54,897 bases of DNA from Nitrospiria bacterium (GCA_036397255.1 DASWJH010000084.1:1-54897); one strand, 5' to 3'. Positions 40,769 to 49,210 are shown, counted from the first letter of the stretch. Numbers and translations are program-made. Notes: generated from the letters alone by a model not told the origin.

Positions 40769-42496
40769 ATGAGCGACCATCACCCTCAATCGACGGGAAT
40801 TTCAGATTCTAGTGAGGAAAACAGCCGAGGGTCAGCAAAATCCCCTTCCGAGCAGAATGAAACCTCCATTGGCCTGATTGATCAGCTTTTAACCGCTACG
40901 GACCTGCAGGACCCACGGCACCAGACGCTTTACCGGCTCCGGCAATCGCTTCTGAACGGGGAAATTACCGTTCAAAAAGCAGAAACGGAAGTCAAAAAGC
41001 TCCAAGAGGTTCTGCAAAAAGTAACCTCTCCCGCCAACCGGGTTGGAACGCTATTGGGTCTACCTGCCACCGGAATGGCCCACATCATTATTGGGGGATC
41101 GGAATATCATGCTCAAATTGATCCCAGACTTTCTAAAGAAGATTTAAAAATCGGTTCACAAATTTTAGTCAATGAAGCCTTTGCGGTGATAAAAGGCTTG
41201 GACTATGATCGTGGGGGTCCTGTGGCTAAGGTAGTAGACGCTCTTCCGGACGGAAGAATTCGGGTTGGCCAAGAACAAGGCTTGCAAAATATTCTCCTGA
41301 TTCGATCCACTCAACTGGCAAACAAAGCGCTTCAACCCGGGGATACGATTCGAATGGACCCCAGCCAACGGGTAGCCATTGAAAACCTGGAACGACCCGA
41401 AACCCGGCAACACCTTTTAGAGGAAATTCCCCAGGTCTCTTGGGAGGAGATAGGGGGTCAAAAAGAAGCGGTAACTGCCATTCGTCGCGCCATTGAGCAT
41501 CCCCTGCTTAATCCTGAAATTTTTAAACGATTTCAATACCAGCAACCCAAAGGGTTTCTCCTGTATGGGCCTCCGGGATGCGGTAAAACGCTGATCGGGA
41601 AAGCCACGGCCTTTAGCCTTGCAAAGCAACTCTCTAAGCAACAGGGTAATAAACCGCTCCAACAGTTCTTTATGCATATCAAAGGGCCCGAAATATTAAA
41701 TATGTGGCTAGGGGAATCCGAGCGGATGGTCCGGGATCTCTTTACCCAGGCAAAATTAAAAAAGAAAGCGGGGTTTCTCCCCTTTATTTTTATAGATGAA
41801 GCGGAATCGATTTTAGGCACCCGAAGGGCCATGCGGTCTTTGAATATTTCCAACACGCTGGTTCCTATGTTTTGCACAGAAATGGATGGTATTGATTCGC
41901 TGCGGGATGTGGTGATTATCCTTGCCTCCAACCGTCCCGATATGATTGATCCTTCCATTCTACGACCGGGGCGGATTGACCGAAAAATAAAAGTAAAACG
42001 ACCCGATGAAAAAGGGGTCTCTGAAATTCTAAATATTTATCTGACCCCTGATATCCCTCTGGACCCCCAACTGCTGGAAATACACGGGAATGATCCCGAA
42101 GCGGCTAGACAGGCTTTAATCCAACAAGGCGTCGACCTTTTGTTTCAGCGGTCCGAAGAAAATCAGGTCCTGACCGTCCAATATCGCAATGGAAAGCGGG
42201 ATATTCTTTATCGGGGAGACCTGGTTTCTGGGGCGATTCTTGCCGCTTTGATCCATCGGGCAAAAGAAAAAGCCATCCAACGAACCCTTCAGGAGAAAAA
42301 AGGCGGGGGAATTCAAATGTTAGATTTAAAGGAGGCCGTGGAAGAAGAATATCGAGAAGGTGAAATTCTACCTCCCGAGGATTCCTCTGAGGAATGGTTA
42401 AAACTTTTGGACAAAGATCCCCATCAGGTGGTCAGTGTCTTGGCGTCCCGTAAGGGGAAGAGGGAAAGATCTATCCATCCTCAAACGATCATTTAA
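40769..42496 (+). CDS. arc: ARC/Mpa proteasomal AAA+ unfoldase
   Basis: From ATG 40769 the protein is 575 residues. It has an N-terminal low-complexity part, a coiled coil (about 55-90) that in Mpa binds the modifier, an OB-domain region, then one AAA module with YGPPGCGKTLIGKA (Walker A), IFIDEAESILGTRR (Walker B) and ASNRPDMIDPSILRPGRIDRKI. ARC hexamers feed tagged proteins to the 20S chamber. The C-terminus reads HPQTII and lacks the HbYX/QYL tail that docks Mpa to the proteasome gate. It leads a six-gene operon. Confidence 0.94.
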   Translation: MSDHHPQSTGISDSSEENSRGSAKSPSEQNETSIGLIDQLLTATDLQDPRHQTLYRLRQSLLNGEITVQKAETEVKKLQEVLQKVTSPANRVGTLLGLPATGMAHIIIGGSEYHAQIDPRLSKEDLKIGSQILVNEAFAVIKGLDYDRGGPVAKVVDALPDGRIRVGQEQGLQNILLIRSTQLANKALQPGDTIRMDPSQRVAIENLERPETRQHLLEEIPQVSWEEIGGQKEAVTAIRRAIEHPLLNPEIFKRFQYQQPKGFLLYGPPGCGKTLIGKATAFSLAKQLSKQQGNKPLQQFFMHIKGPEILNMWLGESERMVRDLFTQAKLKKKAGFLPFIFIDEAESILGTRRAMRSLNISNTLVPMFCTEMDGIDSLRDVVIILASNRPDMIDPSILRPGRIDRKIKVKRPDEKGVSEILNIYLTPDIPLDPQLLEIHGNDPEAARQALIQQGVDLLFQRSEENQVLTVQYRNGKRDILYRGDLVSGAILAALIHRAKEKAIQRTLQEKKGGGIQMLDLKEAVEEEYREGEILPPEDSSEEWLKLLDKDPHQVVSVLASRKGKRERSIHPQTII

Positions 42497-42514
42497 AATT
42501 TCCAAAGGCCCCTT

Positions 42515-44086
42515 ATGGCAAAGCCCGAATCCGAAAAACCCCACATGTTTAAACTCTTTGGAATAGAAACCGAATATGGAATTACCCGGGAGGACCTCGA
42601 AACAGTGGACCCAGTCATTGAATCCATGGAATTGGTCAGGACCCATCTTCAGGGTAAATTTCAACAGGAATGGGATTACCAAGGGGAAGACCCGCACCAA
42701 GACGCTAGAGGTACCCGTGTCAAAGGGTTAAGCCAAGACGACGAAGAAAAAGCCTTCCTCAAAGGGATTGACTCAAACCGTCCCTTTACCTTTTATGAAA
42801 TGAAAAGCGATCTGGTGTTGTCCAATGGAGCGCGATTTTATAACGATCACACTCACCCGGAATTCTCAACCCCCGAATGCAACCGAATCAAAGACCTGGT
42901 GATCTACGATAAGGCAGGGGAATGGACCTTACGGCAGGCCGCAGGGAAACGAAATCTGAGTTTAGGGCGGGGGAAAGTTCAGCTTTATAAAAATAATACC
43001 GACTTTCATGGACACAGTTATGGGTGCCATGAAAATTACCTCCTTCCACGTTCCGTCCCTTTTGAAACCATAGCCCAAAATCTAATCCCCTTCCTGGTCA
43101 CCCGCCAAATTTTCACAGGGGCTGGGAAAATGGGGATTGAATCACCGGAAAACGGGTTTCAGTTTGGAGAATTTCAAATTTCACAACGGGCAGATTTTAT
43201 TGAGACAGAACTGAGTATTGAAACAATGAAAGATCGTCCCATTGTCAACACACGGGATGAACCTCATGCAGACCCCTCTCTATTCCGCCGTCTTCATCTT
43301 ATTTTAGGGGATTCCAATATGTCGGAATACGCCACCGCCCTGAAAGTAGGAACCACATGGTTGGTGTTGACACTCATCCATCGGGGAAAAGCTCCGAAAA
43401 TTTTTTTAGAAAACCCCGTCCAAACTATCCGAAAGGTCTCAAAAGATCCAAGTTTGAGGCAAACCCTCCGAAGCCAAACAGGGAAAACCTTAACAGCCAT
43501 ACAGGTTCAATCCGAATACCTGTTAGCGGCTCAGAAAAACCTTTCGGGAGAAGACCCAGAAACGGACTGGATTTTAAGCCAATGGGAAGAGGTATTAGCG
43601 CTATTGGAAACCGATCGGTCAAAATTAAAAGATAGGGTAGACTGGATTACGAAAGAATGGCTTCTCAACACTTTTTGTGATGAAGAAAAAATTTCCAAAA
43701 CCGATCCCTGGCTGGTTAGTTTAGATCTGGAATACCACAACCTAGACCCGGAAAGAGGGTTGTACACGGCACTTGAAGCAGAGGGGAAAATTCAGCGGCT
43801 GACCACCGATCAGGAAATCCAAGAGGCCCTCATTTTTCCGCCGGAGGGAACCCGGGCCAGAATTCGTGGTCTTTGCATTCGTAAGTTTAAGGACCAAATC
43901 CAATCCATTCAATGGGAAAAAATATCCTTCAAAAACGGGTGGCATAAACCCGTACTCAATATGGAGAGACTTCTAGACCCTAGAGAAATTAACGAATGGC
44001 ACACACAATTGGAAGCCGCATCAAGTTGGAAGGAAGCAATGAATGTTCTGAGTAGTTTAAAGAATCGGATCCACCTAAAAAATTAA
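42515..44086 (+). CDS. dop: Dop, deamidase/depupylase-like enzyme
   Basis: The 523-residue glutamine-synthetase-like protein begins GIETEYGITRED, has the Dop-type extra segment near residue 50 (QEWDYQGEDPHQDARG, where Dop homologues carry WDYE...DARG) and conserved GARFYNDHTHPEFSTPEC, with Asp111 as the probable catalytic aspartate. KNNTDFHGHSYGCHENYLLPRS and NTRDEPHADPSLFRRLHLILGDSNMSEYATALK follow. These features distinguish it from PafA. Since UBact already ends in Glu, deamidation is not needed and removal of the tag from substrates is the more likely task. It follows ARC by 18 bases. Confidence 0.93.
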   Translation: MAKPESEKPHMFKLFGIETEYGITREDLETVDPVIESMELVRTHLQGKFQQEWDYQGEDPHQDARGTRVKGLSQDDEEKAFLKGIDSNRPFTFYEMKSDLVLSNGARFYNDHTHPEFSTPECNRIKDLVIYDKAGEWTLRQAAGKRNLSLGRGKVQLYKNNTDFHGHSYGCHENYLLPRSVPFETIAQNLIPFLVTRQIFTGAGKMGIESPENGFQFGEFQISQRADFIETELSIETMKDRPIVNTRDEPHADPSLFRRLHLILGDSNMSEYATALKVGTTWLVLTLIHRGKAPKIFLENPVQTIRKVSKDPSLRQTLRSQTGKTLTAIQVQSEYLLAAQKNLSGEDPETDWILSQWEEVLALLETDRSKLKDRVDWITKEWLLNTFCDEEKISKTDPWLVSLDLEYHNLDPERGLYTALEAEGKIQRLTTDQEIQEALIFPPEGTRARIRGLCIRKFKDQIQSIQWEKISFKNGWHKPVLNMERLLDPREINEWHTQLEAASSWKEAMNVLSSLKNRIHLKN

Positions 44087-44107
44087 TTTATTGCGGGAGG
44101 AATCATC

Positions 44108-44326
44108 ATGGAACCCAGAAAACCTCAAATTTCACAAACTGTTTTCTCGATCCCTTTTTCTTTCGAACGGAGAAAGCACCCCATAGAGCCCATTCAGCGG
44201 CCACTGGATAAGGACGGTCCCCGAAAACCAGACGTGGGGTCCCCCGAAAAAGATAACCTCTTAAAACGCATGCGCAAGGTCGATCCCAAACAAGCGGAAC
44301 GCTATCGACAAAGAACCGGCGAATGA
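44108..44326 (+). CDS. ubact: UBact, ubiquitin-like bacterial modifier
   Basis: The 72-residue protein is strongly polar and proline/lysine/arginine rich with no hydrophobic core, so it is likely disordered. It starts MEPRKPQISQTVFSIPF and ends PKQAERYRQRTGE with a terminal Gly-Glu, the conjugation end expected for UBact (Pup ends GGE or GGQ). It is placed between Dop and PrcB, where the modifier gene sits in such clusters, with GGAGG eight bases ahead of ATG. Because Glu is encoded directly, PafA could use it without prior deamidation. It is unlikely to be a random frame given context and C-terminus. Confidence 0.93.
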   Translation: MEPRKPQISQTVFSIPFSFERRKHPIEPIQRPLDKDGPRKPDVGSPEKDNLLKRMRKVDPKQAERYRQRTGE

Positions 44327-44351
44327 TCGTGAAAAACAAAGGAGAGCTGCA

Positions 44352-45131
44352 TTGAAAGGGGATTTTTTGAATCTACTTCAACAGAATGGATATCGTTTTG
44401 AACATTCCTTATCGGTAGAAAAACATCGAGAAAAAGACGCCATTACCCAAGGGACAACCATTCTCGCGTTCAAATATAATCAAGGTGTTTTGGTCGCTGG
44501 TGATCGCCGAGCCACTGCCGGAAATGTCGTAATGCATGATCGAACAGACAAAGTTCTGGAAATCGACCGACACAGTGTGTTGGCTATTGCCGGGGTCCCT
44601 GCTACGGCGTTTGAAATCGCACGGATATTGGATCATTCATTTAAATATTATCGAAGAAGCCAACTTCAAGATTTGAGCTTGGAAGGAAAGGTCCGTGCCC
44701 TATCCAGACTTCTGAAAGAAAATATTCCCATGGCCCTGCAGGGAATCGGGGCCATTGCTCCGATTTTTACCTTATATGATATAGGGCTAAGAACAGGACG
44801 TATTTATTTCTATGACATTCTAGGAGCAGAATTTACAGGGGTAGAGTTTGCCACCTCTGGCTCCGGATCTCCGACCATCCGAGGAATTCTCCATTATGTC
44901 AATTGTTGGACCCCCACACCGCTTTCCCAAATGACCGAATCAGAGGCTCTTTTGCTTTCCTTGAGAATACTTGAGACCGCTGCGGAATTCGATTCTGCAA
45001 CTGGGGGAATTAAAAAAGAAGCGAACATATTTCCAGTGATCAAACTAATTACCAAAGAGGGAATCCAAGAAGTGAACCCCACCCATCTTCGGGAAATTTT
45101 CCTTCAAGGGGTAGAGAAAACCCATGTTTGA
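44352..45131 (+). CDS. prcB: 20S proteasome beta subunit
   Basis: The 259-residue protein has a propeptide of 34 residues cut before Thr35 in QG-TTILAFKYNQGVLVAGDRRATAG, where the new N-terminal Thr is the nucleophile. A Lys after DKVLEID and a second Thr/Ser-rich region around ATSGSGSPTIRG match actinobacterial PrcB. It forms the proteolytic rings. TTG 44352 with GGAGAGCTGC ahead is the start. Its end overlaps prcA by 8 bases. Confidence 0.95.
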   Translation: MKGDFLNLLQQNGYRFEHSLSVEKHREKDAITQGTTILAFKYNQGVLVAGDRRATAGNVVMHDRTDKVLEIDRHSVLAIAGVPATAFEIARILDHSFKYYRRSQLQDLSLEGKVRALSRLLKENIPMALQGIGAIAPIFTLYDIGLRTGRIYFYDILGAEFTGVEFATSGSGSPTIRGILHYVNCWTPTPLSQMTESEALLLSLRILETAAEFDSATGGIKKEANIFPVIKLITKEGIQEVNPTHLREIFLQGVEKTHV

Positions 45132-45933
45132 GGAACCCTATCGATGGATTGAGGCCGTTGAAAACCGAAGGGCCTATTTAGACGACCAATTCAAGCAGGG
45201 CAGTCCTGTGGTGGCATTGGTGTATAACGCCGGCATATTATTGCTCACCTTCAGTAGCGGCACTCAAAAAATTTATGAAATTTATGATCGCATCGCTTTG
45301 GGTGGAATGGGACACCCTGCAGATCTGGAAAGAATGCGAGCCTCGCTTTTAGAAATGGCTCATCTTGAAGGATTTAATCGCTCACCCTCTGATGTTACCA
45401 TCGCCCGGCTCATGAAATTTGGTTTGGCACCACCCGTGAAACAGGCCTTTGAAGAAATATTCCGGGCCCCGGTTGTGATTAAACTCCTCTTGGTTCAATT
45501 AGACCCATCTTTCCACCGGACCCCCATCATGTCATTGGATTATGATGGCATTTTTGAGGAATATACAGATATGGCCGTCTTGGCCGCAAACCCAGTAATC
45601 GGTCAACGGATGACCGATTACTTGAAAAAAACAAAAAACCTTTCCTCATTACCCCGAGATGCCGCCATTCAACTGGCGCTTAAAGCCTGGGCGGTAGGTT
45701 TTTCGAGCCAAAATAAATTTGCCGAGGAAAGAGAACAAGAAGAGAAAAAAGGAAAAGCTTCTCTCCCGTCCTCTTCCGAAAGGGATGTGATCATCAAAAA
45801 AGCCCTTCAAACCCTTAAACCTGAAATAGCCGTTCTGGAAGAAGGGCACCCCGGATCCTCTAAATTCCGAACTTTGGGCCCTAAAGAAATGGAATCCATT
45901 CTTACCCAGTGGGTTCACCCCTCAAAGGAATAA
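45124..45933 (+). CDS. prcA: 20S proteasome alpha subunit
   Basis: The 269-residue protein matches the alpha-subunit fold: helix WIEAVENRRAYLDDQFKQGSPVVALVYNAGILLLTFS, then KIYEIYDRIALGGMGHPADLERM, and IMSLDYDGIFEEYTDMAVL. It has no catalytic Thr, as expected for the gate ring. The C-terminal 60 residues are highly charged (EEREQEEKKGK) and probably flexible. The ATG overlaps the prcB stop (ATGTTTGA), ensuring coupled synthesis of the two subunits. Confidence 0.94.
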   Translation: MFEEPYRWIEAVENRRAYLDDQFKQGSPVVALVYNAGILLLTFSSGTQKIYEIYDRIALGGMGHPADLERMRASLLEMAHLEGFNRSPSDVTIARLMKFGLAPPVKQAFEEIFRAPVVIKLLLVQLDPSFHRTPIMSLDYDGIFEEYTDMAVLAANPVIGQRMTDYLKKTKNLSSLPRDAAIQLALKAWAVGFSSQNKFAEEREQEEKKGKASLPSSSERDVIIKKALQTLKPEIAVLEEGHPGSSKFRTLGPKEMESILTQWVHPSKE

Positions 45934-45934
45934 A

Positions 45935-47362
45935 ATGCTCAATCGGATCATGGGTTTGGAAACCGAATATGGTTGCCTTATCACCAGCGAATCCCCTTCT
46001 TTATCTCCGGAAGAAGTGGGCCACCGATTAAAAGATTATCTCTTTCAGAAAAAACAAATCGGGATAGTGGATCTTCACCACCGTGGCTATGATGAACCCC
46101 CTGGAAATGGAGGTTTCATTGTGAATGCAGGGCGTATTTATATGGACATGGGTCATCTTGAATATGCTTCCCCAGAATGTGCCTCCCTTTTAGATATGGT
46201 GACCTTTGACCGTGCGGGGGATTGGATTCTGCAAAATGCCTTAAGGGAAATACATCCCGAAGATAAAATTGATTTAATAAAAAATAACATCGATCATGAG
46301 ACAGGGGCAACCTTTGGTTCCCATGAAAATTTTCTGGTTAGCCGCGCTTTCCCATTTAACCTTGAGGGCCTCTCCCAACTTCTTCCTTTTTTGGTCACCC
46401 GTCAGATTTATTCAGGGACAGGAAGGGTAGGAATCCATCAAACCCTTGGAGATTGGATCCTTTTGGAGGAAGGAAAAGGAAGCAAGAAAGATTCACCATC
46501 GGGTCAAAGCCCATTTCAAATTTCCCAGCGCGCAGATCATATTGTCAATGAATTCTATCAATGGGTCCAATTTAACCGAGCAATCGTTAATACCCGGGAT
46601 GAGCCCCTTGCAGATCCCACCCGTTATCGTCGTATTCACCTCTTGATCGGGGATTCCAATATGTCGGAGTTTGCAACCGCTCTTAAAATCGGAACGACCA
46701 TTTTGGTCCTTCAACTGATTGAGGAGGGTAAAGGTCCAAACCATTTGAACCTGAAAGACCCCGTCCAAAGTTTAAAAAGCATCTCAAGGGACCCACTACG
46801 TCAATGGATCATTCCCTTGGAAAGTGGAAAAACCATTTCAGCCATTGACATTCAAACCGAATATCTGTCACGGGCAAAGCAATTTCTCAAAGGACAAGAC
46901 CCAGAAACCGATTGGATCCTGGTGGAGTGGGAACGGGTATTAGGGGATCTACGAGGGGATTATCATCATTTAGTTGATCGGGTGGATTGGGCTGCCAAGC
47001 GCTGGCTTTTGGAAACCTTTATTGAGTCCGAAGGACTGGATTGGAACGATCCTTGGATCAAAAGCCTAGACCTGGCCTATCACAATCTTGATCCCAAAAG
47101 AGGACTCTTCTTTGGCCTTTTGGAAGAGAACCGGGCCCTTCGCTTTACCACAGACAACGCTATCCAGTTAGCTACACAAAACCCACCCCGCAACACCCGG
47201 GCCTTTGGGAGGGGGAATTTAATCAGCCACCTGATTCACAATCCCTCTCCTTATGTCATCAACTGGGCTGCGTTTCAGATCAAGGGAAAAAACCCCTTCC
47301 CGATGGCCGATCCATATAAAACCTATGTTCATGAAATCAAATCTCATTTAAACTGCGTGTAA
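45935..47362 (+). CDS. pafA: PafA, modifier ligase
   Basis: The 475-residue protein starts MLNRIMGLETEYGC and has a shorter N-terminal region than Dop, NAGRIYMDMGHLEYASPEC (Asp71 equivalent to the catalytic Asp of PafA), and NTRDEPLADPTRYRRIHLLIGDSNMSEFATALKIG. It also retains PETDWIL and a C-terminal domain ending HEIKSHLNCV. By homology it forms an isopeptide bond between the C-terminal Glu of the modifier and a substrate Lys. The gene begins one base after the prcA stop. Confidence 0.93.
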   Translation: MLNRIMGLETEYGCLITSESPSLSPEEVGHRLKDYLFQKKQIGIVDLHHRGYDEPPGNGGFIVNAGRIYMDMGHLEYASPECASLLDMVTFDRAGDWILQNALREIHPEDKIDLIKNNIDHETGATFGSHENFLVSRAFPFNLEGLSQLLPFLVTRQIYSGTGRVGIHQTLGDWILLEEGKGSKKDSPSGQSPFQISQRADHIVNEFYQWVQFNRAIVNTRDEPLADPTRYRRIHLLIGDSNMSEFATALKIGTTILVLQLIEEGKGPNHLNLKDPVQSLKSISRDPLRQWIIPLESGKTISAIDIQTEYLSRAKQFLKGQDPETDWILVEWERVLGDLRGDYHHLVDRVDWAAKRWLLETFIESEGLDWNDPWIKSLDLAYHNLDPKRGLFFGLLEENRALRFTTDNAIQLATQNPPRNTRAFGRGNLISHLIHNPSPYVINWAAFQIKGKNPFPMADPYKTYVHEIKSHLNCV

Positions 47363-47461
47363 CCAGAACCGTTTTTCAGCACCGATTGGCACAGGAAGGG
47401 CTGAAGAGACCTATTGGAATTACCAAAAACGTTCGGTTCACAAACCCATAGCGGAAAAAAA

Positions 47462-48019
47462 ATGGATGTCTCTGCAGTGTGGATGAAATTTCACAAAGAC
47501 CTGCACCGGTTCCTTTCAAAACAGGTGAGGAACAAACAGGATGCGGACGACATCCTTCAAGATATTTTTATCAAAATCCATAAACATTCCAACCAGCTGA
47601 AGGTAGAAGAAAGCCTCAAGGCTTGGGTGTTTAAAATCGTAAAAAATGCCATGGTTGACCATTATCGAAGAGAAGGAAAACAGGCCACCCCTCAAGTGGT
47701 TTTCGATAATTTCAGCGACCAAGCCCATCAGATTACGTTCAATGAAGAAGCAGGCCAATGTCTGAAGCCTATGTTGGAAAACCTCCCGGAACGTTACCGG
47801 TCGGCACTATTCCTAACAGAGTTTCAGGGAATCACCCAAAAAGAATTAACCCAACACCTAGGTCGGTCATTGTCCGGGGCCAAATCCAGGGTACAAAGGG
47901 GAAGAGAGAAACTAAAAACCCTATTACTGGCTTGTTGTCATTTTGAACTAGATCGGTTAGGAAATATTCTCGAGTATGAAAAAAGGGGAAAAGATTGCCA
48001 ATATTGCAAAAAATGCTAA
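47462..48019 (+). CDS. ECF-type RNA polymerase sigma factor, SigZ-like
   Basis: The 185-residue protein has sigma region 2 (FLSKQVRNKQDADDILQDIFIKIH), a linker, and region 4 (LENLPERYRSALFLTEFQGITQKELTQHLGRSLSGAKSRVQRGREKLKTLL). It ends in a cysteine-rich tail ACCHFELDRLGNIL, then CQYCKKC, characteristic of SigZ-like factors. The start is uncertain: ATG 47462 or TTG 47414. It lies 99 bases after pafA on the same strand and could be in the same transcript; no anti-sigma gene is visible. Confidence 0.88.
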   Translation: MDVSAVWMKFHKDLHRFLSKQVRNKQDADDILQDIFIKIHKHSNQLKVEESLKAWVFKIVKNAMVDHYRREGKQATPQVVFDNFSDQAHQITFNEEAGQCLKPMLENLPERYRSALFLTEFQGITQKELTQHLGRSLSGAKSRVQRGREKLKTLLLACCHFELDRLGNILEYEKRGKDCQYCKKC

Positions 48020-48079
48020 GATCAGTAAGAGGAAAATAGATAGATTCTAAAAATTTTCCCCAATGGAAAATTGAACCAA

Positions 48080-49210
48080 ATGAAAAATATTTTTAAAACG
48101 AAAGATGAAAGACTTTTACCAACCAGGACACCCCTTTTCCTTGCCTTTTTTATTTTTTTGATTTTTCTGCACCCCTTAAAAGCCTCGACCTTTGAATTCA
48201 AAGGTTTCGCTGACGTAACGTTTAATTATACCGACAACAAACAAGATACCACTGATAGGAATACCAATGGGGCTTTTTCCCTAGGCCACCTAGATTTATA
48301 CCTATCTCACTCCTTAAATGATCGAATCGATGTTCTCGGTGAAATTCTCATTGAAGGAGAAGATAATGGAGAATTTGAGATTGATTTAGAGCGGTTACAA
48401 ATCAGTTATTATTTTCGTGATGAGTTTATTGTCCGGGCAGGGCGATTTCATAATGTGTTGGGGTATTGGAACACAGCCTATCACCACGGTTCTCTTTTAT
48501 ATACAACCATCGATAGGCCATCCTTCCTACAATTTGATGACCAGGGAGGGGTTTTACCCACTCACCTGATCGGTCTTTGGTTAACAGGTCGGTTATCCCG
48601 AAACCAAGGAACACTAGAGTATAGTGTCATGGCAGGGAACGGTCCAAAAATTAAAAACGCCGGAACAACCGGAAGTTTAGATCCAAACAGTGTTTCGGAC
48701 AATAATAAAAACAAAGCCCTTTCATTTCATTTGGAAATTTTGCCATCAAAAATTGAGGGACTGGGAATTGGAATCTCCGGAAACTTTAGCGAAATACAAT
48801 TTTTTGATATAGATGGTAATCGCATTTTGGTTGGAGGAGCCAACCAAGTCATCCAAGAAATTCTAAGTGCAGATTTAGAATATTCTGCCAAAAATATTGA
48901 ATTAATTGCTGAGGGATATCAGATACGTGACCATGGGTCTGGAGCCTCGCATTTCATCAATTATGCCTGGTATATACAAGGGGGTTATAAATTTCTAGAA
49001 CGCGTCACCCCTTATGTACGGCATGAGCGTTTTACCATACATGAAGAAGATCCCTATTTCCTTGCCCTGGGAAAACAGGATAAAAAAATCACTGTTGCGG
49101 GGATCCGTTTTGATATCATGGCTTTCAGCGCCCTTAAAGCCGAGGTCCGGTTGGTGGATAGCACGGACCATTATGAAGAATATGCCGTTCAATGGGCCTT
49201 CGCTTTTTAA
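48080..49210 (+). CDS. outer-membrane beta-barrel protein, porin-like
   Basis: The protein of about 376 residues has a signal peptide (LFLAFFIFLIFLHPLKA, cut near residue 36), then strands in the style of FKGFADVTFNYTDN, LDLYLSHSLNDRIDVLGEILIEGE, GRFHNVLGYWNTAYHHG, and finishes AVQWAFAF. A C-terminal aromatic and regular alternation suit a 14-18 stranded porin-like barrel. The start is ATG 48080 or TTG 48071. It overlaps the convergent small gene by 4 bases. Confidence 0.75.
   Translation: MKNIFKTKDERLLPTRTPLFLAFFIFLIFLHPLKASTFEFKGFADVTFNYTDNKQDTTDRNTNGAFSLGHLDLYLSHSLNDRIDVLGEILIEGEDNGEFEIDLERLQISYYFRDEFIVRAGRFHNVLGYWNTAYHHGSLLYTTIDRPSFLQFDDQGGVLPTHLIGLWLTGRLSRNQGTLEYSVMAGNGPKIKNAGTTGSLDPNSVSDNNKNKALSFHLEILPSKIEGLGIGISGNFSEIQFFDIDGNRILVGGANQVIQEILSADLEYSAKNIELIAEGYQIRDHGSGASHFINYAWYIQGGYKFLERVTPYVRHERFTIHEEDPYFLALGKQDKKITVAGIRFDIMAFSALKAEVRLVDSTDHYEEYAVQWAFAF

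Follow-up and report, generated by a model that had tools for sequence, protein, structure and literature searches.

The window analysed here, a stretch of 54,897 nucleotides from a Nitrospiria bacterium (GCA_036397255.1, DASWJH010000084.1:1-54897), carries at positions 40769-47362 of the + strand an operon of six open frames, in the order ARC, Dop, UBact, PrcB, PrcA and PafA (Table 1). It is a further example of the described UBact system in Nitrospirota, in which a small protein tag is encoded together with homologues of the Pup-proteasome proteins. The frames are separated by 18, 21 and 25 bases, then by an overlap of 8 bases (PrcB/PrcA) and finally by 1 base; one strand, spacings of 1-25 bases and an overlap of 8 had all been given correctly in a sequence-only reading of the window. 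In nearly all fetched relatives with a contig spanning the operon, the six genes stand together, far beyond chance; in Chthoniobacteraceae, they are spread over separate contigs as ARC-Dop, tag-core and PafA genes. Protein identities to the nearest relatives found are about 50-63%. The ARC frame opens with an ATG at 40769 (MSD...), a start shared with most relatives, and an internal ATG at 42545 is a possible alternative start for Dop.

Searches with Pfam and NCBIfam profile hidden Markov models identify every one of the six proteins. The best NCBIfam matches of the five non-tag proteins are the proteasome ATPase, Dop, PafA, 20S beta and 20S alpha models, but all five score below the equivalog cut-offs (bits/cut-off: ARC 449/504.75, Dop 464/492, PafA 345/551, PrcB 163/192, PrcA 46/139). 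Although under the canonical cut-offs, they are clear homologues of Pup-proteasome proteins.

Table 1. Genes and features of the UBact operon (window coordinates).
Feature	Position	Strand	Basis
ARC/Mpa-like proteasomal AAA+ ATPase, UBact type, 575 aa	40769..42496	+	PF00004, PF17758, PF16450; TIGR03689
ARC N-domain helices, residues 33-43 and 49-86	40865..41026	+	AlphaFold pLDDT 82-90; alignment
ARC Walker A, GPPGCGKT	41567..41590	+	invariant columns 267-274
ARC Walker B, FIFIDE	41783..41800	+	D343, E344 invariant
ARC C-terminal tail Thr-Ile-Ile, replacing GQYL/HbYX-type docking motif	42485..42493	+	family tails
Dop-type depupylase homologue, 523 aa	42515..44086	+	PF03136 543 bits; TIGR03688
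Dop-loop with conserved Trp53 (WDY..EDP..DARG)	42647..42814 (approximate)	+	absent from both PafA types
Dop Thr237, equivalent of Dop alpha-loop Thr	43223..43225	+	alignment to 4b0r
UBact, 72-aa ubiquitin-like tag, C-terminus RQRTGE	44108..44326	+	PF20513, NF033388
Conserved basic C-terminal block of UBact, residues 33-72	44204..44323	+	PF20513 match
PrcB, catalytic 20S beta subunit, 34-residue propeptide	44352..45131	+	PF00227 82 bits; TIGR03690
PrcB catalytic Thr1 (precursor Thr35)	44454..44456	+	aligned to residue 1 of mature PDB beta chains
PrcB Asp17 (mature chain)	44502-44504	+	window translation
PrcB Lys33 (mature chain)	44550-44552	+	window translation
PrcA, divergent 20S alpha subunit	45124..45933	+	TIGR03691 46 bits; AlphaFold; Foldseek
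PafA-type ligase homologue, 475 aa, without Dop-loop	45935..47362	+	PF03136 447 bits
PafA residues 287-386, sequence sorting by system not enzyme; putative tag-recognition segment	46793..47092	+	scans, region trees, site likelihoods

The small protein, previously described as 72 residues ending in Arg-Thr-Gly-Glu, has that length and terminus (...RYRQRTGE) in translation and passes the cut-offs of both UBact families (PF20513, 73.3 bits, cut-off 27.8; NF033388, 76 bits, cut-off 35), while the Pup profiles PF05639 and TIGR03687 gave no match to it in the Pfam and NCBIfam searches. Its gene adjoins PafA/Dop-family and proteasome genes. Among 102 UBact homologues, 84 end in RTGE and 18 in RTGQ. 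Since the window tag ends in Glu, it needs no deamidation; the homologues ending in Gln would. The sequence-only reading had put forward '-GE' as the diagnostic remnant on substrate lysines, but trypsin would instead leave Thr-Gly-Glu. Calculated from residue masses, tryptic lysine remnants amount to +287.11 Da for UBact (TGE, with cleavage after Arg) and +243.09 Da for Pup (GGE, with cleavage after Lys). A second, weak UBact match in another genome (G141; 26 bits, under the cut-off) has no adjoining system genes at its locus (L209) and was taken as chance.

The window ARC matches the Pfam AAA domain (104 bits) and both proteasomal-ATPase OB domains; its Walker A and B motifs, already recognised in the earlier reading, are intact and invariant in the family. 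UBact-type ARC forms a clade apart from Pup-type ARC (support 100), and the two types differ at both ends. In Pup-type ARC, a long coiled coil is the receptor for Pup (PMC8755798); the UBact-type N-domain is shorter and unlike it in sequence, with a longest run free of Pro and Gly of 35 residues, against 65 in the Pup type. The AlphaFold model, of medium confidence as a whole (predicted local distance difference test, pLDDT, 75), shows a head that is disordered, then a short helix and a single one of 38 residues. At the C-terminus, Mycobacterium tuberculosis Mpa binds its core via a GQYL motif (PMC8755798). The tail reads G[HAQ]Y[LF] in 35/35 Pup-type ARCs and [IV][IVE] in 88 of 89 UBact-type ones, some of these loci coming from the same species; neither a GQYL-type motif nor a penultimate Tyr occurs in any of the 89. 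The sole UBact-type ARC with a different C-terminus (...YAPKN; L168, G131) is maybe due to a frameshift or an assembly error; at the same locus, no separate PrcB frame was found.

The window Dop scores higher with the NCBIfam Dop model (TIGR03688, 464 bits) than with the PafA model (380), and matches the Dop structure 4b0r in the PDB with an E-value of 1e-110. For the window PafA, the PafA (345.2) and Dop (345.1) models score equally, and its PDB matches comprise PafA (4b0t/4bjr) as well as Dop structures; the PF03136 match (447 bits) indicates a Pup-ligase fold, and the catalytic motifs are present in the consensus. The two glutamine-synthetase-like enzymes are separable, as had been proposed: the Trp of the Dop-loop and the Thr of the alpha-loop are both present in Dop and both absent from PafA. 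The role of this Trp, and of alpha-loop T217, which binds the last residue of the tag, has been described (PMC8599861). Both window enzymes align over nearly their whole length with the structures 4BJR, 4B0R and 7OXY (PMC8599861), and Dop retains the Trp and Thr named above; both differ from these structures in net charge and in the segment corresponding to PafA residues 287-386.

The core subunits are a PrcB with catalytic residues and an alpha-type PrcA; their assembly and peptidase activity are predicted. PrcB matches the Pfam Proteasome family (82 bits) and TIGR03690. Its Thr35, which the sequence-only reading had placed behind a propeptide of 34 residues, lines up with residue 1 of the mature beta chains in the PDB, and Thr1, Asp17 and Lys33 are kept in all 93 PrcB family members with a matching start motif. 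The residue preceding the catalytic Thr (window 44451-44453) is Ala in 67/93, Gly in 24/93 (the window included) and Ser in 2/93 UBact-type subunits; Gly is usual before Thr at autoprocessing sites. PrcA is the least similar of the subunits, its Pfam score (19.7 bits) falling slightly below the cut-off of 22.4. Its AlphaFold model (pLDDT 92) finds M. tuberculosis PrcA in Foldseek with an E-value of 6e-16 and a template modelling (TM) score of 0.88. The H0 helix of alpha subunits is present, and the pocket lysine, Lys49, is invariant in 26/26 aligned sequences.

The genome from which the window derives also contains a second system. Of its four Pup_ligase genes, two lie on contig C105 (G000, L005:7030-13429, minus strand), where ARC, Dop, Pup, PrcB, PrcA and PafA form a complete canonical operon. 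All six parts exceed the canonical Pup-system cut-offs; the Pup protein has 66 residues, ends in VQKGGE and scores 75.8 and 58.6 bits with PF05639 and TIGR03687, respectively. The tetranucleotide profile of the C105 locus correlates with that of the window at r 0.982, as compared with 0.980 among parts of the window itself and 0.29-0.77 for loci of other genomes; the assembly comprises 122 contigs and has an estimated contamination of 0.5%. Thiamine-biosynthesis-like genes lie upstream of the C105 operon on the same strand.

Throughout the phylum, this arrangement recurs. In a sample of 296 genomes, UBact was found in 104, Pup in 138 and both in 97, with Pup alone in 41; 12 of the genomes with both systems consist of a single contig, and most have four ligase-family genes. 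The closed genomes of Nitrospira moscoviensis and N. defluvii contain both systems, with the same UBact operon as the window. UBact stands alone in G019 (single contig, 99% complete), so that, with the 41 Pup-only genomes, neither system depends on the other. Two complete, apparently orthogonal systems are the rule in UBact-bearing Nitrospirota. Outside the phylum, just two ligase-family genes occur in each of the verrucomicrobial UBact genomes examined, which therefore have the UBact system alone; one of two poribacterial genomes has both systems. In one further genome (G179, 99% complete), which has UBact together with four ligase-family genes, Pup gave no match; either the Pup gene was missed, or it was lost with the ligases kept.

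In Nitrospira and family f3 (L184, L191, L210, L215, L216 and others), no operon partner lies within 7 kb of the Pup gene. That it is an orphan there was rejected after a search for ligase genes, and the loci fetched with it, revealed an intact ARC-Dop-PrcB-PrcA-PafA operon elsewhere, about 50 kb from the Pup gene in N. moscoviensis and about 215 kb in N. defluvii. Annotation based on neighbourhood would miss Pup, because its gene lies tens to hundreds of kilobases from its operon.

The systems differ consistently in the charge of the tag, the tag-handling enzymes, the N-domain and docking tail of the ATPase, and the alpha subunit. Charges were compared in 22 genomes with paired UBact and Pup systems. 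Over the last 40 residues of the tag, the median net charge is +4 for UBact and -5 for Pup, a shift of +10 with the same sign in 22/22 genomes. The enzymes that handle the tags shift the opposite way: UBact-type PafA is more acidic by a median of 14 charges (21/21) and Dop by 12 (21/22), with no shift in PrcB, which served as a control. Column by column, the charge shifts of PafA and Dop coincide (r 0.46; 0/5000 shuffles); one column of reversed charge sets UBact-type Glu366 against Pup-type Lys342. The p-values of these comparisons overstate independence, because the pairs share ancestry.

The phylogeny of the two enzymes points to one particular segment. In a tree of 67 ligase-family sequences there are four clean clades, and PafA joins Dop within each system (support 96); the alternative grouping of Dop against PafA, that is, one ancient duplication, is not rejected in this set (approximately unbiased (AU) test, p 0.23). 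In a second set, extended by verrucomicrobial and actinobacterial sequences, all shared columns together favour a division into UBact and Pup enzymes (97.8; Dop against PafA, AU p 0.19). Without the columns of window PafA residues 300-430, Dop against PafA is recovered (98.3), and the division by system is not rejected (p 0.35); taken by themselves, residues 300-430 yield the division by system (97.6) and reject that by enzyme (p 0.018). As this region had been picked after the charges were seen, two scans without a preset region were run. The best 100 columns are PafA residues 287-386 in an unsupervised similarity scan (0/5000 shuffles) and those from residue 285 in a scan of site-wise likelihoods with fixed groupings (43 log units; 5/5000 shuffles). 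In the latter, the ends and active-site parts favour Dop against PafA, and the whole length is a tie (-1.6).

The segment follows the catalytic motif blocks and precedes the C-terminal domain. Its consensus is DW..K.WLL..F..E....W.DPW..SLDLEYHN in UBact enzymes and DWV.K..L..SY..KKG..W.DPR..MMDLQYHD in Pup enzymes. On the simplest reading, it is probably a tag-recognition surface that was altered jointly in PafA and Dop. The case for the UBact ligase and depupylase being mosaics is evenly balanced; either the pair would have arisen twice, or a change in the charge of the tag was accompanied by joint rewriting of the tag-recognition segments of both enzymes, through gene conversion or parallel selection, with two naturally orthogonal systems in Nitrospirota. 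A single Dop/PafA duplication before the split of the systems is contradicted by the trees from all columns but is not rejected by them (AU p 0.19-0.23).

Taken together, the operon quite probably provides a complete UBact-proteasome pathway, alongside a second, equally complete tagging-degradation system that runs parallel to it in the genome. By homology with the Pup system (ligation, reversal by Dop and unfolding by ARC into PrcBA; PMC8599861, PMC10465538, PMC8755798), the PafA-type ligase would use ATP to phosphorylate the Glu at the UBact C-terminus and join the tag to substrate lysines; the Dop-type enzyme would remove it and, in species with a Gln end, deamidate it. The short N-terminal helices of UBact-type ARC may serve to capture the tag, after which ARC would unfold the substrate and feed it into the PrcA/PrcB core, whose active Thr would be exposed by propeptide cleavage. 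Docking on this core would still occur, via the tail ending in Ile/Val. The differences between the systems most likely insulate the two pathways from each other, and the enzymes of the Pup system appear built to ignore the UBact tag.

The sequence-only reading of a functional tagging-degradation pathway is thus supported in kind: the operon is complete and its tag passes the family cut-offs, while function in the cell is deduced. It missed the second, Pup-type system, the separate UBact-type clades and the missing GQYL docking tail. Some points weigh against the interpretation given above. The analysis directly gives gene anatomy and sequence pattern, from which activity, any targets and the insulation of both systems are inferred; the tag-binding role of the 287-386 segment is likewise indirect. 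The motif on which docking is known to depend is absent from UBact-type ARC, which leaves its coupling to the core less than assured. The charge contrast maybe reflects one ancient divergence, in which case 22 genomes are not 22 independent tests.

Three other explanations can be considered. Ligases, depupylases and ATPases of both operons might handle both tags without insulation, the second operon serving dosage or condition-specific expression. All catalytic residues are common to both systems, both tags end in G-[EQ], and each system occurs alone in some genomes, which speaks for this; the opposite charge of the tags with matching shifts in both tag-handling enzymes, the system-specific segment, and the distinct N-domains and docking tails of ARC make it unlikely. 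Somewhat less likely again is that UBact acts mainly as a reversible, non-degradative modifier, its ATPase uncoupled from the 20S core. The penultimate Tyr that M. tuberculosis Mpa uses for core binding (PMC8755798), absent from all 89 UBact-type ARCs, speaks for this, but prcBA is retained in the operon in nearly all the fetched relatives with a spanning contig, Thr1/Asp17/Lys33 of PrcB and the pocket Lys of the alpha ring are conserved, and the new ARC tail is itself conserved as [IV][IVE]. That the C105 operon is a binning contaminant of a UBact-only organism, as a draft in 122 contigs might allow, is practically excluded by the tetranucleotide match and the low contamination estimate, and is already refuted for the group by the 12 single-contig genomes with both systems.

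UBact conjugation-proteasome clusters of Gram-negative bacteria were reportedly described by Lehmann et al. in 2017 in Biochemical and Biophysical Research Communications (BBRC). The window shares with these clusters (PF20513, NF033388) the tag family, the gene set and the phylum, with no difference in kind. With the canonical Pup-proteasome system of Actinomycetota, and of C105, it shares gene order, enzyme folds, catalytic residues, a 20S core of alpha and beta subunits, and the G-[EQ] end of the tag. It differs from that system in having a tag of reversed charge without a PF05639 match, five enzymes and subunits below the cut-offs, and an ARC with a shorter N-domain and without the GxYL tail. 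For Leptospirillum ferrooxidans, a passage of a 2012 review (PMC3511204, Fig. 2) records the whole system twice (L1, L2), GGE being absent from the tag of the second copy. Here too, a single Nitrospirota genome has two complete systems that agree in gene order. The passage calls them two pupylation copies and predates the UBact name; spread through the phylum and molecular differences are not among its contents. Apart from this Leptospirillum note, no description of co-occurrence was found in the literature covered on UBact, Nitrospira and Pup (the 2017 UBact paper lying outside this coverage).

The wider result, two systems as the rule together with a system-specific segment, is more interesting than the window operon alone. 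Bacteria with two covalent tags, each of which seems to have a ligase, eraser, unfoldase and proteasome to itself, would illustrate how ubiquitin-like signals stay separate within one cell. Testable outcomes are the reversed charge of the tag, the docking tail without Tyr, and a segment of 100 residues that is expected to determine the tag specificity of ligase and depupylase alike. The two distinct lysine mass tags can be searched for in existing Nitrospira proteomes; the organisms concerned include nitrite-oxidising Nitrospira.

A scan for sigma-70 promoters and terminators gave no enrichment over shuffles. The flanking genes (ApbC/Mrp, a hydrolase, a SigZ-like sigma factor and an outer-membrane-like protein) were considered as parts of the UBact system and rejected, because they have no counterparts around the UBact operons of relatives. 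Among them, a SigZ-like extracytoplasmic function (ECF) sigma factor gene (window 47414-48019; NCBIfam 219 bits, cut-off 212) begins 51 bases 3' of PafA on the same strand and is absent beside the UBact operons of relatives. At 48071-49210 there is a gene for a protein of 379 residues without a Pfam or NCBIfam match, which has a signal-like N-terminus and the look of an outer-membrane beta-barrel.

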